Shown here: piece by piece, positions 49,473-58,979 of the stretch
How positions within the stretch are numbered: the stretch's first letter is position 1
How the letters are laid out: each line of letters opens with the position of its first letter
Origin: Ectocarpus siliculosus
Lineage: Eukaryota; Sar; Phaeophyceae; Ectocarpales; Ectocarpaceae
Length of the DNA: 64,000 bases
Reading direction: 5' to 3'
Assembly: GCA_000310025.1 (NCBI GenBank)
Contig: FN649741.1
Location: forward strand, 7,077,854 to 7,141,853
Notes under the pieces: generated by a model
What the model saw: the letters and a program-made list of their open reading frames with translations, nothing else
Databases searched by the model: none
What the model was told of the DNA's origin: nothing
Made by a program: the position numbers and the translations under genes

Positions 49473-52400
49473 GTTTTTGTTATTGTTGTGTTTCGGGCGT
49501 ATGCTGGTAGGCCGCATGGTGGCGACGGTAGCGGCTGTTGTCGGTCACTTTTCTTGCTCTTGTTTCCGCAGCGTTTGTTGTCGGTGTTTTCGTTTGCTGC
49601 TGTGCTGCCACTGCAGCTGTATTTATTGCTGTGTTCTGTTGTCGTTTCGGGTGTTGATGTCCTCACAGAAATAAACGTTCTGACGTCCATCCAGTCCCTG
49701 GTATCCTATTCTTCATAGCAAAGACAATATATTCAGCGTCACAAGTTATCCAAAGGGAAGGTTGTGAATACGAAATACTGCACACACGTGTTCCTCTTCC
49801 ACCCGGAATGCGTGCATCGCCGCTGTCGTTAACTTTCCCCTCATGTTCTCACTACTCACCACGCCCAACGACATCAAGGGGTGGGACCCGTGTACGAGTT
49901 GAAGTACGCCTTCCTCTATGGCTACAACGGGACGACTTTCGCCATTCCGGGCACCTCCGTGGGGGTACACACCGGAGACCTGGAGCACGTTACCATCCGC
50001 GTGGACGCGAAGAGAATGATGTGGGTGCTGAGTTACCGTCGTGACAGATCGTGGCTGGTAGGCAAAGATATCGACGCCCAGCCTGGAGACAGGATGACGA
50101 CTCGTGTTCATCAACAGAAGGACCATGAGGGGCTGATTTCAAGCCCAAGCGTGTGGATGATTTCTGTTCTTACGCTTGAAGATATTCGGATTCCGATGAA
50201 GATTGATCATGCTCCCCCCCGTGTTTTGCGAGTAGTCCAGCGATTCGATCGGTTGTTTTCCTGCCCCCACCTTAGCATGGCACGTAACCCGGAATCGTGT
50301 ATCTACATGGATTAACTCACACCGATCCGCTACAACGACTACCTATTATTACCACTATTTTTTCGTAGGTCATTGTTAATGTAGTTGCCAGAATGTGTGA
50401 GCAGGAGTTTGTTCCGGTGGACGCAGCCTGACTGCCTGCCCGAGGGCGTTGTCATGATCGTGGGTAGGGTTACCTCTCGTGGTGTGCAAACAAATATCCT
50501 TGGACCTCAGGCGCTGCCTAAAGCACCACTACATATTTTTTGTTCGGCGGGGGGGGGGAGTTGTACACCAACCCAAACGATACTAAAATCTCATCCCTCG
50601 AAGAAGCTGTTCATCAATCCACCAATCAACGCTGTGCGTATGACCGTTCGGTGCCTGGCATCACCCGTTAACCTTCTTATGATGCAGGATCTTGGAAGCG
50701 TTTTTCGCCGCTCATAGCACCGGCGAGGGCAAGTGGATTCCATCGAAAGAGTTCTACCGCCAGGTCAGGCCTTGAGGGGCGCTAAAAATACGGCAGTTTC
50801 GACACATTGATCTTGCTTCAAACGGCGGTACTTGTCAGCCAGTCGGTCGCGCTCGATGTTCAGTCGCCTGCCTTACCCTCCGCCATCTGCCCCGAATGCC
50901 CGGACAAACCGGTTTCTGGACAACGCTACTACTGCTGCTGCCGACTGCTTCTGGGAGGCGCGTGTGCTGCATATTGATGGACATCTACTGGCAGCAATCG
51001 TACCCGTCTAAACTGTGTTTTCGTACGTTCGTCTGCTGGCAAGCAACACATCTGTCTGTTGGCAGCAACAGTATGCGCGTATGCTGCATACCGATAGATT
51101 TTGTCCGTTGGTAGGAAAAATATACTGGTCTGCTGGCAGCAAAACTCACGCCGTTGGCACAACGCATCTATCTGGTTCCACCGGCAGTACTACGGAAGTA
51201 GTCGTGTTGTTGGACGACCAACTCTGCCTGACGACGGCAGAAATTGTGCACGCCCCCTCGTGTAGGTGGAGGCCTGGGAAAGAGCCGTGCACCCAGGCGT
51301 CGCTCCGGAGGCGCCAGAGTCCACGCGCGAGTTCCTCGAGATGGATTTTTCTGAACCATCTACGGTAGGGGGCGCCGGGAGTGGCGGCGGTGCTCCAGTG
51401 CCCTGCGGGGCCGCTGACGCGGTATCGCAGGGAGGTATTGGCAGCGGTGGCGGTTGCGTCGGCGGCGAGCGATTGGTAATTTATCCCGCCCGAAATGGCC
51501 ACGCGAGCTACCACACCCCGAAGAGGTGAGTGACCGTATGTACTTTGCGGCGGTTCTGGGAGATGGCTCCCCGGCGGCCCTTTTTTTTAAAGTAATTTCA
51601 ATGCGTGGCGTTTGTTTCCAGCGCCGACAAGATGTCCACGGCAATTTCGACGTTGCGTTTGATGTCACTCAGATCCGTCCTTCCGGCAGTCCGAGCGGCG
51701 GTGAAAGTGCTTGTGGGAAGGCATGTTAGTTGGCTTGTATTTCTGAGCCTGCTGGCGCAGGGAACAGAACTATGTAAACTATTTAAACGCATCGCAAAAG
51801 GTGCCGGTGGGCAATCTAGAGCATTGGAATCATGACGAGCTTGTACGCGGTTGCACCCGGGCCTGTTGTTGGAACTCCAGGCATTAGCTTTCGGCGTTAG
51901 TTTCTCAAGGCAATGGCTGAATCCCTTGCTCTCGATGGTTTGCAATATCACCCAGCCTTTGACTCGCCACTGATAGTTTTCGGGGGAACCCCAAGATAGC
52001 CGGTTCACTGTTCGGGGTCCCCAACAGTAAATATTGTTTTTTATTATTGTAGTGATCGAGAGCTGGCCCGCGCGCCTCTCTCTCTCTCACTCTAATCTTC
52101 TACTATCAAAACCAGGCCCTGGGGTCAGCCTGTATTAACGACATCATCAACAATATCTTGCATCTCATCGTTCTGAGGGTCACCGAGTTGCGTAACAGCA
52201 CTCAGCAGTGTTCCACCTCTCGCATACAGCAGGTTGTCTTGCTTCTGAGCGAGCACCTGCGGTAAGCTTTCCAAAGCGGTCAAGCCCGACGCAATACCGC
52301 CGCAAGTATATCACCAAGACCTAGTACCCAGTCCCTCTGCAAAAAGAAAATGTCGCAAAAATGTTTGTCAGCCATTGGTCGGGGTGCTACAGTCCCTCCA

Positions 52401-55400
52401 AAGAATCTGAGCTCCTTGCCAGACAAAGGGTGACTTGGCTTCAGTATGAAAAGTGTCCCCAAAACACGTGGGAACACTTTTCATACTGAAGCCAAGTCAG
52501 CCAATTTTTCTAGTACCAGGCGATGTACAGTTTTACGATCTAGGGGACACGTGGTTGGGAGATGTGTACAGCAAGTCAGAGGCCCAGGAGAGGCATCGCA
52601 CAGCATGTCACACAGCGTACCACCTCAGCCAGAGCAAAATAGACCCAAGGGTTCCTACGTGCGTGCACACAGCGGAGCCTAGGGTGACTACAGTGAGTGA
52701 TGTAAGCAGGCATTTGAGTGCTGTGTCCCCAAAGTGTCCCCATTTGGGCTTCCGTACTAGGAGGGTTAAGCCGAAAAGGTTAAACCGAAAAGGTTTTAAG
52801 CCGAAAAGGTTAACGCGAAACAGTTAAGCCGAAAACGTGAAACCGAAAAGGTTAAGCCGAAAACATTAAGCCGAAAAAGTTAAGCCGAAAACGTGAAACC
52901 GAAAAGGTTGAGCCGAAAGGATAAACCGAAAACGTTAAGCAGAAAACGAGAAACCGAAAAGGATAAGCCGAAAAGTTACACCGAAAAAGTTAAGCTGAAA
53001 ACGTGAAACCTAAAAGGTTGAGCCGAAAAGGATAAGGTTAGGACTTAACGAAGAAATCAAATCTCGATTCACATTTCGATATGAGAATACAAGAGTCGGA
53101 TCTTACCAAATCCGAACTGAAATGGTCTGTGTCTTACGGCAGATCTGCCAAACGGAAACGAATCTCTGCAGTCCACCGCGACAACCCGAGAGGTCCGCCG
53201 CTTACCAACTGCCAGATTGCTGTTGTGACGTACTGCTGTGACGTGGCCACACCACATGGGGAGCTATCGCTCCCGAGAAGCACACACCAAACGCGTACAT
53301 GGCCTCTGTGCGGTACTGACACGATGTCTATGCATGTGAGACTTTGAATCGAGCCTCGTCCGACGGAAAGCTACCAATTCGTCCGTGCATTTGAGGTTCG
53401 ACAACCCACGGGAGATTACCCCACAGACCAACACACCCCACACACGTTTTTTTTCGGCGCCAGTCACGTGCAACAACGATGCACAGTCACCCTCCCTTTG
53501 GGTTGGCTTTTTGTGCTCTCTCTCTCCTCTGCGCTCGGCGGTGGATGGAGTTCGTGTGGATGGGGGTAGATGGGCACGCGCCGTGCAATGCGAGTAGACC
53601 ATGGTCCCAGAACTATGGTTGCGGTTCACCCACATCGGGATTCGATTTAATCATTTTGGGTCGTCCTGTTTTAAGTCCAAAGAGGACGCCGGCGGATGAA
53701 CTTTTTGCCCAATCAAAAATATAGTTCTTTGGATCTTCCGGTCTCATCACCAAATCTGAATGCGAAGTCGAGATCTGAATCCTGCGTTAAGACCGGCCCT
53801 AAACCGAACACAAACGTGAACCCCACAACGTGAAACCGAAAGGTTAACCCGAAAAGGTTAAACCGAAAAGGTTAAGCCGAAAAGGTTAAGCCGAACACGT
53901 TAAGCCGAAAAACTTCAGCCGAAAACATGAAACCGAAAAGATTGAGCGGAAAAGGATAAACCGAACACAAGTGTGAAACCCAAAACGTGAAACCGAAAAG
54001 GTTAAGCCGAAAAGGTTGAGCCGAAAAGATTAAACCGAAAAACTTAAGCCGAAAACATGAAACCGAAAAGGTTAGGCCGAAAAGAATAAACCGAAAATTT
54101 GAAGCCGAAAACGTGAAACCGAAACGGTCGAGCCGAAACTAATAAACCAATAGGTTGAACCGACAAGTTCAAGCCGAAAACATGAAACTGAAAAGGTTAA
54201 GCCGAAAGAGTAAACGGAAAAAGTTAAGCCGAAAACGTGAAACCGAAAAGGTTGAGCCGAAAAGGATGAACCGAAAACAAACGTGAAACAGAAAACGTGA
54301 AACCGAAAAGGACCGAAAAGGATCAGCCGAAAAGAAAAAGCCGAAAAGGTTTGGCTGAAAAATCCGAAAAAGTTAAGCAGAAAACACGAAACCGAAAAAG
54401 GCAGAAAATATAAAACGGAAAAAGTTAAGCCGAAAGCGTGAAACCGAAAAGGGTAATTAAGCCGAAAAGGATAAACCAAACCCAAACGTGAAACCGGAAA
54501 GGACCGAAAAGGATAAGCCGAAAAAAATCAAGCCGAAAACATGAAACGGAAAAGGTTAAAACCGAAAAGGACCGAAAAGGATAAGCCGGAAATATTACAC
54601 CGAAAAAGCTAAGCCGAAAACGTGAAACGGAAAGGTGAGCCGAAAAGGATGAACCGAACACAAACGTGAAACCCAAAACGTGCAACCGAAAAGGACCCAA
54701 AAGGATAAGCCGAAAAGAATGAGCCAAAAAGGTTTAGCCGAAAACATGAAGCCGAAAAGGACAATAAACCGAAACAAATTAAGCCGAGAACATGAAAGCG
54801 GACAAAGCTAAGCCGAAACGTGAAACGGAAAAGGCAAAAGCGAAAAGAACCGAAAGGATAAGCCGAAAAGTTTAATCCAAGAAGGATAAGCCGGAAAAAG
54901 TTAAGCCGAAACAATTTAGCCGAAAACATGAAACCGAAAAGGTTGAGCCGAAAAGGATATACCGAAAACGCGAAACCGAAAACGTGAAACCGAATTGGAC
55001 CGAAAAAAATGAGCCGAAAAGGTTAAGCCGAAAATATTAAGCTGAAAAAGTTAAGCCGACAACGTGAAACCGAAAAGGTTGAGCCGAAAAGGACGAAAAA
55101 CCGAAAACGTGAAACCGAGAACGTTGAACCGGAAACGTGAAACCGAAAAGGACCGAAAATGATAAGCCGAGAAGATGAAACCCAACAGATTAAACCGAAA
55201 CCGAAAAGGTTCAGCCGAAAAGATTGAACCGAAAAGGTTCAGCCGGAAACACGAAACCGAAAAGGATAAGCCCAACAGATTGAACCGAAAAAGTCAAGCC
55301 GAAAACGTGAAACCGAAAAGGTTAAGCCGAAAACGATAAACCAAAACGTGAAACCGAAAAGGAACGAAAAGGACAAGCCGAAAAGGATAAGCCGAAAGAT

Positions 55401-57587
55401 TAAACCAGAAAGGTTAAGCCAAAAACGTTACACCGAAAAGGTTGAGCCGAAAAGGATAAACCGAACACAAACGTGAAACGACAAACGTGAAACCGAAAAG
55501 GAACGAAAAGGTGAAGCCGAAAAGGTGAAACCGAAAACATTAAACGTGAAAAGTTAAGCCGAAACGTGAAACCGAACACGAACGAAAAGGACAAGCCGAA
55601 AAATTTAAGCCGAAAAAGAGTTACACGAAACAAGTAAAGTCGAAAACGTGAAACTGAAAAGGTTGAGCCGAAAAGGATAAACCGAACACAAACGTGAAAC
55701 GACAAACGTGAAACCGAAAAGGAACGAAAAGGTGAAGCCGAAAAGGTGAAGCCGAAAACATTAAACGGGAAAAGTTAAGCCGAAACGTGAAACCGAAAAC
55801 GAACGAAAAGGACAAGCCGAAAAATTTAAGCCGAAAAGAGTACACGAAACAAGTAAAGTCGAAAACGTGAAACTGAAAAGGTTGAGCCGAAAAGGATAAA
55901 CCGAACACAAACGTGAAACGACAAACGTGAAACCGAAAAAGACCGAAAACGATAAGCCGAAAAGATTAAACCGAAAAGGTTGAGCCGAAAGATTAAACGG
56001 AAAAAGTTAAGCCGAACACTTGAAACCGAAAATGTTGAGCCGAAAAGGGTAAACCGAACCCAAAGGTGAAACTCAAAAAAGTGAAACCAACAAGGACCGA
56101 AAAGGATACGCCGAAAGGGTTAAGCCGACAAGATTAAACCCAAAAAATATAGCCGAAAACATGAGAGAAACCGAAAAGGTTAAGCCGAAAAGATCAAACG
56201 GAAAAAGTTAAGCCGAAAACGTGAAACCGAAAACGTGAAGAAACCGGTTAGGACCGAAAAGGAAAGGCGAAAAGGTTGAGCCGAAAAGATTAAGCCGAAA
56301 GGGTTAAGCCGAAAACATGAAACCGAAAAGGTTGAGCCGAAAAGGATAAACCGAACCCAAACGTGAAACCCAAAACGTGAAACCCAAAAGGTCTACCGAA
56401 AAGGACCGAAAAGGATAAACCGAAAAGTTTAAGCCGAAAAATTACACCGAAAAAGTAAAGCCGAAAACGTGAAACCGAAAAGGTTCAGCCGGAAAGGATA
56501 AACCGAAAACAAACGTGAAACCCAAAACGTGAAACCGAAAAGGTTGAGCCGAAAGGACAATAAACCGAAACGTGAAACCGAAAAGGACCGAAAAGGATGA
56601 GCCGAAAAGATTAAACCGAATAGATTATACCGAAGCCGAAAAGGTTAAGCCGAAAAGGATAAACCGAAAACGTGAAACTGAAAGCAAGCGTGAAACCGAA
56701 AATGACCGAAAAGTTCAAGGCGAAAAGATTAAACCGCAAATATTTAACCGAAACCGAAAAGGGCCGAAATGGTTACGCCGAAAAGTTTAAACCGAAAAAA
56801 TCGAAAAGTCAAGCCAAAAACGCGAAACCGAAAAATTTGAGCCGAAAAGGATAAAAAACCGAAAACGTGAAACCGAGAACGTGAAGCCGACAAGCCGAAA
56901 AGATTAAACGGAAACCGAAAAAGGTTAAACCGACAAGGACCGAAAAGGAAGCGGAAAGGGTAAAATCCGAAAGCTTAAACCGGAAAATTTAAGCCACAAA
57001 CGCGAAACCGAAAAGGTTGAGGCAAAAGGATAAACCGAAAGCATGAAACCGAAAAGATTGAACCAACACCGAAAAGGTTTAACCGAAAAAGGTTCAACAT
57101 ACCGAAAAAAACGAAAAAATTGAGCCGAAAACGTGAAACCGAAAAGGCGAAACCGACAACATGTAGCCCTCCCACGGTTACGCCCGGAGTTCGATTCTCC
57201 GTACATACGTGTACCATGAAACAGACAAGGCTTTATCTCGATATTAACCAGGTCATCATTCAAAACAACTCACCTGGGCAGAGATGGTGCACTAGATCTG
57301 CGGAGAACGATCTACTTCGATAGTATTGTGTAGAACAGCAGTCAAGCGGCAGTATGACGACATCCAACAGCGATCACGCAGTTCCTCGCAAGCTCAGCAA
57401 TCGACGTATCAGGTTCAGCACTCACAGGGATTCGCACTTGGCGAGCAAAGGCACAGGGTATGGCTAATTTGATGCCGAAACCCGGGGGCGGTGTCAAGTG
57501 AGACACCTGGGTTGATGCCGAAACCCGCGTCTGACAGTCCCGCCTCTGCGCCTCTCTGTCTGTCTCTGTCTGCCTGTGTGTGTGTGT

Positions 57588-57660
<73 letters not shown>

Positions 57661-58979
57661 TTGGAAGGTGGCGGCGCTTCGTCGGCCTCGGCGATGACAT
57701 CTGCGGGGGCGACGGGAAGGTGTGGCGGCCGCACGCCGTCCAGCTGGACCACCCCAGAGGAAGCGAGCCCCCGTGGTTGCGGTTCCGAGGGCGGTACGGG
57801 GGGACCCGCTGCATCACGTCGGAGGCGTTTTGGAGGTGCGGGGGCGAACCTCCCCGGCGTTGCAGCGCGGAGGTGGGTGCAGGAGAAGGGGACGCCGACG
57901 GGGGGCTAACTATTTCCAAGCGGGGACTAGACTAGATGTGTCGATGCTCGCGGTGCCCTGTTCTGTGCCATGTTTCCGCAAGCGAATTCTGATGTCTACG
58001 AAGCACGTGACTGAGGCATGCACCGGTACATGGTTTGGCGGTTACGGAACATACATTGTTCAGGCTCACCAACCGGCACCAGCGCGTGGACAGAGGGGTT
58101 GCTGCAGCCAACGAGAAAGAATTGACGCGGTCCTGTGGTCGGGAATGTTCTGCTGGTAGGGGTGGTGGTCGGAATGTTCTCATGGCACCTCAAAAAGGCA
58201 GTTGTAATGAGCCAACCTGCTTTCCCGTAACCGGCAAGTTGTGGGATATGACGGTGTCCGGGCTGGCGGGGCCGACATACCCATGTATCGTCACACGATG
58301 CGAGAGACAGTAATCCGCTCGAATGGATGCGTGCGTGCTACAAGCGCTCACCATCACAGGACAAGCCGCCAAACCCATCTCTCGCAAGATGCGTTGTCGA
58401 GAGACTTAGACGTCCAAACCACCGGCGGCGGCGGCGGCGTTTTTTATCTTTCTTCCTTTTGGCCAGGCGAAATACCGCAGCGTGTTGGAGGAGGGACTGG
58501 TACCAGACCGAGGGGTGAGTTTCCGTAAGGGTGCGAGAGAACGTACGGGGGTGCAATATCACGTACATGCGATATCACCGATCGTCGTGCGATAATCGAA
58601 TTAAATAATTTCGTGCTTGTATTTTTGTCGCACCGGGACGCTGCCTCGGCGTTTTTGTAGTGTTGGTGTTGAGGCATCGGTGGATGAAAAACGGAGTGAG
58701 CCACAACAACAGCAGTAGTATGACGATGGTCCACCCGGACACATTGAGAGAACTACGGAAAGTTGTTGACCTTGAACGTCCCTACTTTTTGCTCCATTAG
58801 CCGATTGGTGCGACGTGGTCACCTCGAGCTCGGATTGGTCCAATCGGCTTGTTCCAGAAGGCGAGAGGTATACACGTTTGCACATGAAAGAAATTTCAGT
58901 CTTAAGACTGTTTTTTTTCTCGTCCCCCTAGGCTACTATCCAAGCAGAACACGCGACGTCATGTTTTTTTGCCAACCAG
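45814..58979 (+). CDS. Vps62 / DUF946-domain protein
   Basis: Exons I can support: 45814-45840 (MTTREEELK), 46034-46440, about 49878-50020, 50688-50763, 51266-51525, 57668-57835, and probably 58481-58514 and 58932-58979. In order the protein reads LLAYFSPVVKFDAGEKHYPVSVETF, an acidic insert, VYELKYAFLYGYNG, SVGVHTGDLEHVTIRVD, FFAAHSTGEGKWIP, a Gly-rich loop, VIYPARNGHASYHTPKR|WRRFVGLGDD and EPPWLRFRGRYGG. This is the order of motifs in Vps62/DUF946 proteins, whose biochemical role is not established; yeast Vps62 is linked to vacuolar sorting. The joins 50763/51266, 51525/57668, 57835/58481 and 58514/58932 are in phase; those around the 49.9-kb exon are not resolved and an exon may be missing. 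The intron 51526-57667 (6.1 kb) is mostly minisatellite. A further phase-0 segment at 60395 and an exon-like segment at 61356 could be the C-terminus. Confidence 0.75.
46671..47154. pseudogene. inverted duplication of a gene fragment inside a Vps62 intron
   Basis: The arms 46671-46890 and 46922-47154 are inverted copies. The minus strand of the left arm reads KNGRPAHKADDFEVYWRTDS, while the plus strand of the right arm reads QNGRPAYKTDDLEVYWRTDN and then hits a stop. Further out both encode a TL(A/S)....S.KA..DISDLDF segment, in shifted frames. So both arms derive from one coding sequence and both are broken by stops or frame changes. The protein family is not recognised. RNA through this locus would form a hairpin with stems of about 220 bases. 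Confidence 0.8.
47560..48130 (+). repeat. diverged tandem repeat, about 175-180 bp unit
   Basis: The words CGTACCCTCTCGAAG, GGCCGATGTCGTCC(C/G)TG(C/T)TGTTGC, TTTT(A/T)(G/A)...AAGGATCA and CTTGCTCGA recur in the same order with spacing of about 175-180 bases, giving roughly three degraded units. Confidence 0.65.
48191..48290 (+). repeat. dispersed repeat family A, copy 3
   Basis: Contains TAGGGATGCGGGGTCAATG and GTCTAACGACTACGGCATGC and ends GAGGATACCCCTACCCCC. The 5' half (GCCTGACTGCTGAAGCAGTG) is more diverged than in copies 4 and 5. Confidence 0.6.
48510..48830 (+). repeat. tandem repeat, three units of about 115-130 bp
   Basis: TTTCAACATCGAGAAGGGCAAC (48530), TTCAACATTGAGAAGGGCAACCAGCTCC (48658) and TTTCAACATGGAGAAGGGCAACCAGCTCC (48772) each begin a unit that continues with CCAACCA...GGGG and a C(A/C)CGCA-like start of the next. 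Confidence 0.75.
49432..49472 (+). repeat. (GTT)n microsatellite
   Basis: About thirteen uninterrupted GTT units. Confidence 0.95.
52431..52499. repeat. near-perfect 30-bp inverted repeat (hairpin)
   Basis: TGACTTGGCTTCAGTATGAA and the following ten bases pair with the reverse complement at 52470-52499 with a single mismatch; the loop is nine bases (52461-52469). It ends about 265 bases before the minisatellite. The near-identity of the arms suggests a recent origin or selection. Confidence 0.9.
53041..53794. mobile_element. 754-bp element with terminal inverted repeats inside the minisatellite
   Basis: A non-repeat island interrupts the 14-bp array. Its left end (GGACTTAACGAAGAAATCAA) and the reverse complement of its right end (GGTCTTAACGCAGGATTCAG) match at about 75% over some 42 bases, including an internal ATCTCGA. 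No transposase-like frame is seen, so it would be a non-autonomous DNA element. No clear target-site duplication is visible, as expected if it is old or inserted into a repeat. Confidence 0.6.
55441..55930 (+). repeat. higher-order duplication within the minisatellite, about 220 bp
   Basis: The segment beginning GTTGAGCCGAAAAGGATAAA followed by CCGAACACAAACGTGAAACG occurs at 55441, 55662 and 55881. The first two 220-base copies are nearly identical throughout, differing at a few bases and one or two small indels; the third is partial. This is much closer than neighbouring 14-bp units are to each other, so a recent segmental duplication took place. Confidence 0.9.
57575..57661 (+). repeat. compound (TG)n(TC)n(GC)n microsatellite at a splice acceptor
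   Basis: Eight TG units, about 29 TC units and seven GC units end six bases before the acceptor TTGGAAG|G at 57667. The TC tract is very likely the polypyrimidine tract for the Vps62 exon that starts at 57668. Confidence 0.95.
58556..58632. repeat. GCACCGGG-family element, locus 3
   Basis: Diverged copy with TGCGATATCACCGAT, GTGCGATAATCGAATTAAAT and TTGTCGCACCGGGACG. It shares the AATCGAATTAAAT centre with the copy at 44853. Confidence 0.45.

Follow-up and report, generated by a model that had tools for sequence, protein, structure and literature searches.

The 64,000 nucleotides of Ectocarpus siliculosus analysed here (GenBank assembly GCA_000310025.1, contig FN649741.1, positions 7,077,854 to 7,141,853), which we call the window, hold a minisatellite array of 14-bp units built on CCGAAAA. 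It lies in what appears to be an intron of a Vps62/DUF946-like gene, a placement that is well supported. The CCGAAAA arrays of this genome are dispersed over eight loci, and the window array is the largest of them. We consider it likely that the eight are one old, passive minisatellite family riddled with transposable elements and ordinary in kind. Since some of the loci share borders, and since an order of several units recurs in all eight, the most economical history is that blocks were copied and then decayed.

The array and its unit

The first-pass annotation, made from the letters of this DNA, placed a 14-bp array at 52764-57160. This holds up. Tandem Repeats Finder (TRF) returns period 14, and the window has 62 doublets of the form CCGAAAA-N7-CCGAAAA, every one of them on the + strand, where 100 dinucleotide shuffles lead one to expect 0.00. 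These are short head-to-tail units well above chance, as a minisatellite should have. TRF follows period 14 over 53839-56670 of the second block (203 copies, 65% matches). Longer periods reach 56947, and a final array piece lies at 57125-57160; the periods in this block are 14, 42, 58, 79, 136, 152, 221 and 304 among others. Array DNA in the window comes to 273 + 3356 = 3,629 bp with block bounds that we set from motif runs, in agreement with the earlier figure of about 3.6 kb.

The array is not the single unbroken one that had been described. A 764-bp miniature inverted-repeat transposable element (MITE) at 53036-53799 splits it. Other copies of this MITE are 83-91% identical (40 scored of 196 candidates, window copy included). 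TAA stands on both sides of it (53033-53035 and 53800-53802), and the sequence read across it, GGATAA/ACCGAACACAAACG, recurs within the array, for example near 55458-55480. This implies that the two blocks were formerly one array. Harbinger-type elements typically have such a TAA duplication.

We typed a cyclic 14-mer as consensus and aligned the eight arrays (13,160 bp in total) to it; in the resulting unit profile the seven CCGAAAA positions are 0.88-0.93 constant. The remaining positions are two A at 0.84 and 0.93, one A/G at 0.48/0.47 and four variable ones at 0.56-0.75. The 186 exact doublets of the genome have 71 spacer types, the commonest being CGTGAAA (27) and GGTTAAG (21). Strict spacing of CCGAAAA had been claimed, and this is wrong. 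Intervals between motifs are 14 bp in only 93 of 189 cases in the window array; over all eight arrays (n = 636) there are 280 of 14 bp, 46 of 28, 38 of 13, 33 of 10 and 20 of 18. The divergence of the units, seen both by TRF and in the profile, does support the claim that the array is old.

It was also said to be still active, on account of a 220-bp block duplicated at 55441, 55662 and 55881. The first two copies stand, at 97.8% identity. The third is partial, with 83% over 150 aligned bp to the copy at 55441 and 80% over 178 to that at 55662. We take this one tandem duplication to be a recent rearrangement of the window array, which supports that part of the annotation.

Above the level of the unit, a 95-nt seed of several units, taken from the window text, occurs 31 times and in all eight loci, against 10-23 times in 20 unit-shuffled sets. 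In 40 further sets the seed was compared inside the window (16 versus 3-11) and outside it (15 versus 3-12). Multi-unit order recurs in all eight arrays, and does so more than in unit-shuffled arrays.

Eight loci in the genome

Whether such arrays are unique, centromeric or dispersed was a question raised by the annotation, and the answer is dispersed. Each of the 75 exact CCGAAAA triplets of this intron-rich, 189-Mb genome lies within one of eight loci (three on contig C2, one on C14, two on C16 and two on C17), and so do 186 of the 198 doublets (62 of the 186 in the window array), although worn array copies may escape pattern searches of this kind. Five of the other 12 doublets are isolated among the matches listed, and the reversed pattern, used as a control, gave six matches. 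A similarity search with a query whose tail holds about 130 bp of array found array matches at the same eight places only (24 candidates scored). A centromeric or subtelomeric satellite would form long homogeneous arrays at one place per chromosome. What is found is eight short arrays of diverged units on four contigs.

The host intron

Table 1. Features of the intron around the window array and of its flanking exons
Feature	Position in window	Strand	Basis
Exon of Vps62/DUF946-like gene before the intron, ending ...PKR/gtgagt; start is start of match	51260..51525	+	own-genome protein search, splice site
Dispersed MITE-like repeat, ends CCTAGTAC...GTACTAGG, abutting 5' end of array	52320..52761	.	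similarity search, ends read
CCGAAAA 14-bp array, first block	52764..53035	+	TRF period 14, 19.5 copies, 74% matches (TRF end 53036)
MITE inside array, 764 bp, imperfect terminal inverted repeats (GG......CTTAACG)	53036..53799	.	similarity search, borders read
Array, second block, about 3.36 kb, diverged units, multi-unit order	53803..57161	+	TRF, unit profile, seed test
Tandem duplication of about 220 bp, two full copies and partial third from 55881	55441..55882	+	97.8% over 225 bp, 55441 versus 55662
3' half of tRNA-Gly(CCC)-like sequence ending CCA; on - strand, putative long primer-binding site beside the long terminal repeat (LTR)	57158..57216	+	similarity
Truncated LTR of a retrotransposon family	57217..57517	-	84% to L006 over 362 bp including tRNA half
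(TC)29 microsatellite just upstream of 3' splice site	57591..57648	+	TRF period 2, 100%
Exon of Vps62/DUF946-like gene after the intron, R/WRRFVGLGDD...; end is end of match	57668..57800	+	open frame in phase; match 57663-57800

The annotation held the array to be intronic, with exons that join in phase. Splice sites and phase on both sides support this: AAGAG/GTGAGT stands at 51525/51526 and TTGGAAG/G at 57667/57668, the phases agree (PKR/WRRF), and the joined frame is open. A protein search of the own genome gave three matches only, which belong to one gene and follow its order on a single strand (the match for the exon before the intron is C16:7129113-7129382), and there is no paralogue among the three. 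On the joined protein, Pfam Vps62 matches residues 18-38 only, in an exon further upstream, at 17.3 bits versus a cut-off of 22.1. The 174-aa join across the array matched no Pfam family, so HASYHTPKR/WRRF is not confirmed as the conserved motif it was taken for. The name Vps62/DUF946 is a provisional one, drawn from this below-cut-off match and from the first-pass annotation.

The intron measures 6.1 kb, from the exon end at 51525 to the exon start at 57668. From 52320 its parts follow in the order dispersed repeat, first array block, MITE, second block, tRNA half with truncated LTR, and (TC)29, a microsatellite that may possibly serve as the polypyrimidine tract. The repeat at 52320-52761 has an internal 34-nt inverted repeat and 39 other scored places in the genome at 83-88% (best 40 of 288 candidates scored, window included).

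Six of the eight arrays look intronic, five in sense and one antisense to the host gene, and the host genes look unrelated. At L005 an exon of a predicted membrane protein, ...GGTGCAAG/GTGAGG, is followed at once by the array and then by TTACCAG/CGTGGTGCCG in phase and in sense. No fitting Pfam family was found there, and exon continuity is what assigns the host. At L007 an IFT74-like exon is followed by GTGAGC and the array, in sense; the next exon, if any, lies behind a run of N. The name IFT74 comes from a match at E 0.057 to a solved IFT74 structure; a longer query from this gene gave no IFT74 match, and Pfam gave unrelated weak matches only. The L003 array lies in sense between predicted exons of an IQ-motif protein, whose IQ match is over the cut-off with two predicted exons joined and under it for one exon; the upstream exons matched no Pfam family. 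The least certain intronic placement is L004, where the array would follow, in sense, a weak TIMP-like exon pair (TIMP below cut-off) and the downstream exon is predicted by coding score only. It must be noted that this score was self-trained on these loci and lists many non-genes too. At L002 the array is antisense: the two predicted exons on either side of it are on the opposite strand, and ABC1 matches (PF03109) lie about 12 kb upstream of them on that strand, so the host is presumably ABC1-kinase-like. For its two C-terminal exons neither a Pfam family nor a relevant PDB match was found. The L007 exon is copied in L006, where it contains an in-frame stop; neither L006 nor L001 could be assigned a host gene from predicted exons.

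As a yardstick only, we use the figure of 46% for introns in the Ectocarpus genome from the available part of PMC12477816, which also describes a relatively even distribution of tandem repeats. Six intronic arrays of eight then have P = 0.098, which is not significant. A rule that the arrays lie in sense, suggested by the window, L005 and L007, was rejected because L002 is antisense and five of six is not significant.

Shared borders and block copying

The best evidence for copying is at the borders of the arrays. The window and L006 have 362 bp of 3' flank in common at 84%, and L004 has the same junction of tRNA half and LTR. L006 and L007 have 377 bp of 5' flank in common at 87.5%, made up of the IFT74-like exon with the GTGAGC that follows it and the first part of the array. 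Inside the arrays, the window and L006 are 83-90% identical across seven 60-column bins counted from the LTR junction, where 60 random 120-bp registers give a mean of 79.5% (standard deviation 5.1).

Several points weigh against our reading. The alignment of the window to L006 is gappy, with 8-27 gap columns per 60, and the control reaches a maximum of 90.9%. The window and L004 are 85-90% identical for three bins and then go down to 71%. L006 versus L007 drops to 70% after one bin, and L006 versus L004 is not clearly above the control. The 95-nt seed reaches all eight loci in 2 of the 40 shuffled sets too. The sense orientation of five of the six arrays with a host gene has a two-sided P of 0.22, which is not significant. 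Finally, the core positions are more constant (0.84-0.93) than the box positions (0.56-0.75); constraint could also give such a contrast, and constraint and amplification history could not be separated as its cause. Because of the gaps, the range of the control and the quick drop in the other pairs, common descent by block copying is established at the borders and no more than suggested inside the arrays.

We propose that the family began as a multi-unit array with a core of about 10 nt, AA(A/G)CCGAAAA, and a variable 4-nt box. This array would have grown by slippage, unequal exchange and block duplication, of which the window has one recent example. Pieces several units long would then have been copied elsewhere along with flanking DNA, as the two kinds of border indicate, most simply by templated break repair or segmental duplication. 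MITEs and LTR pieces would later have split the arrays while mutations wore them down. The window array would simply be carried in its intron and removed by splicing.

As a separate observation, the IFT74-like exon, its 5' splice site and the intron start are duplicated about 580 kb apart on one contig (L006 1975-2349; L007 4844-5210, reverse complement). The common 3' flank of L001 and L002 was rejected as proof of shared descent, because this flank belongs to a repeat with many copies (40 of 168 candidates scored). It is a dispersed repeat of about 680 bp, at 3300-3990 of L002 on the - strand, and one part of it (query 406-611) is tandemly repeated in many copies.

The LTR piece and alternative explanations

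The 3' border of the window array deserves a closer look, since it offers another explanation. The LTR part alone is 84% identical to that of L006 over 312 bp. The tRNA half is 98% identical to L008 and 94% to L019, over 47 bp in each case, and it is common to L004, L006, L009-L011 and L018. ARAGORN found no tRNA gene in the window, and the name tRNA-Gly(CCC) is our reading of the arms in L008 and L019. The L006 LTR is 71% identical to both LTRs of a full-length element at C5:445322-456414 (L017), which are themselves 99.0% identical over 498 bp; RVT_1, RT_RNaseH and Integrase_H2C2 are over their cut-offs there and rve is below. A short interspersed nuclear element was also considered for this flank. 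It was dropped because LTR copies exist without the tRNA part, the aligned body has TG...CA-like ends, and there is a full-length element with two LTRs.

One can imagine a non-autonomous LTR element, made of LTR, long primer-binding site and minisatellite, that spread into introns by retrotransposition and has the array as its internal leader. In three of the eight loci (window, L004 and L006) the array does meet the primer-binding site and LTR, each time at the same junction. However, no such border is present at L001, L002, L003 and L005, and the L007 sequence passes into N. When all eight loci and their flanks were searched for the LTR, it turned up at a single place in L006, in the window and in L004 (there in two pieces) and nowhere else, so that no locus showed a second LTR. 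In these three loci the LTR is thus on one side only, although runs of N could conceal one at L007. The C5 element, the full-length relative, also has no CCGAAAA array: over a 10-kb stretch the motif is seen 0 times on one strand and 1 time on the other, and it is seen 0 times in the adjoining 2.2 kb with the primer-binding site. The array is therefore not a normal part of that LTR family. The copies L009, L011 and L018, which have the long tRNA part, show no similarity to each other beyond it. We regard a retrotransposed leader as unlikely.

Another argument is that the array works: a protein would recognise the CCGAAAA core, or the A-rich strand would affect chromatin or the speed of splicing, and the intron position would be selected. 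The constancy of the core, the six arrays that look intronic (five of them sense) and the lack of acceptor-like sites all speak for it. Read in the CCGAAAA orientation, the arrays contain 0 polypyrimidine-YAG sites per kb, whereas the remainder of the window has 1.05 on one strand and 1.10 on the other. This scarcity may make an array easier to tolerate in an intron, and it follows from the array being A-rich. However, the spacing is loose, the intronic excess is not significant, one intronic array is antisense and the hosts look unrelated. AATAAA stands at 0.91 per kb in the arrays versus 0.22 and 0.26 in the rest of the window, the opposite of what a transcript-safe design would have. AGGTRAG, a motif like a 5' splice site, is at about window density (0.23 per kb versus 0.19 and 0.14). 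The longest stop-free run in the window array blocks is 151 codons. The annotation had suggested protein binding, chromatin shaping or slow splicing, and the loose spacing, the missing polypyrimidine-YAG sites, the ordinary density of 5'-site-like motifs and the antisense array at L002 lend these no support. We judge a selected function very improbable. A fuller version, in which one mobile family enters introns by copying multi-unit blocks with neighbouring DNA, is tolerated through its near absence of polypyrimidine-YAG acceptors and has its AA(A/G)CCGAAAA core kept by a nuclear protein, is highly doubtful. The observed features can be explained without any function, and we judge the window array passive.

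Even the assembly can be questioned, since degenerate arrays are hard to assemble and a long run of N lies near the L007 array. A misassembly, or two genes wrongly joined across the array, nevertheless seems extremely unlikely. The only 120-bp window tiles with more than 95% identity to another place lie in the 220-bp duplication. The MITE has clean TAA borders. The own-genome protein search found only three ordered pieces of one gene, all on the same strand, and the splice sites agree in phase.

In several copies (window, L004, L006, L009-L011, L018) the LTR adjoins as much as about 50 nt of a tRNA-Gly(CCC)-like sequence that ends in CCA, and the DNA past this sequence is dissimilar. By eye, the full-length relative matches only about 16 nt of this tRNA part. 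An LTR with a long tRNA part would presumably fit strong-stop DNA that was copied further into the primer tRNA and then integrated. L009 and L010 are identical over 1,000 of 1,000 bp on two small contigs, and are perhaps an uncollapsed assembly duplicate.

Comparison with known systems

Helitrons can pick up gene fragments, and their ends are 5' TC and 3' CTRR. Ends common to all eight arrays did not appear in our comparison of flanks by BLAST and by eye, which included no dedicated search for Helitron ends. The central tandem repeats of Helitrons (DINE-TR1), as far as they are treated in the accessible part of PMC6947457, are alike in being tandem repeats, and a gene fragment is present as at L006. 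According to the same portion of that source, minisatellites can arise in transposable elements and be spread by them. Our arrays resemble such cases in having short units at several places, beside or cut by LTR pieces and MITEs, but here no one element surrounds all eight arrays, and there are two kinds of flank, one of them a host-gene exon. The Helenus elements, terminal-repeat retrotransposons in miniature with tRNA-like LTRs (PMC10886601, in excerpt), also have tRNA-derived sequence at the LTR. It is inside the LTR in Helenus, whereas here it is outside, at the primer-binding site. The TERT minisatellite VNTR6-1 likewise lies within an intron of a protein-coding gene; in the available excerpt of PMC11830802 it is a 38-bp repeat that varies in copy number between alleles, and the title of that paper links it to splicing, whereas the arrays here are strongly diverged and known from one assembly. 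Literature on CCGAAAA together with minisatellites included, among the matches listed, work on Xanthomonas typing, Trypanosoma, yeast and Theileria.

The eight loci illustrate the dispersal of a single small repeat family, for the most part in apparent introns, and the window illustrates how a minisatellite array, MITEs, part of an LTR and a microsatellite came to make up an intron of 6.1 kb. For the window array these results weaken the argument for a functional element, and the eight loci could be typed between strains. For specialists this is a tidy example rather than a surprise.

Two of the arrays also each contain a repeat of about 960 bp twice, at L004 2737-3647 and 5748-6689 and at L005 3849-4926 and 5379-6352 (reverse complement). 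The closest L004 and L005 copies are 95.8% alike over 974 bp.

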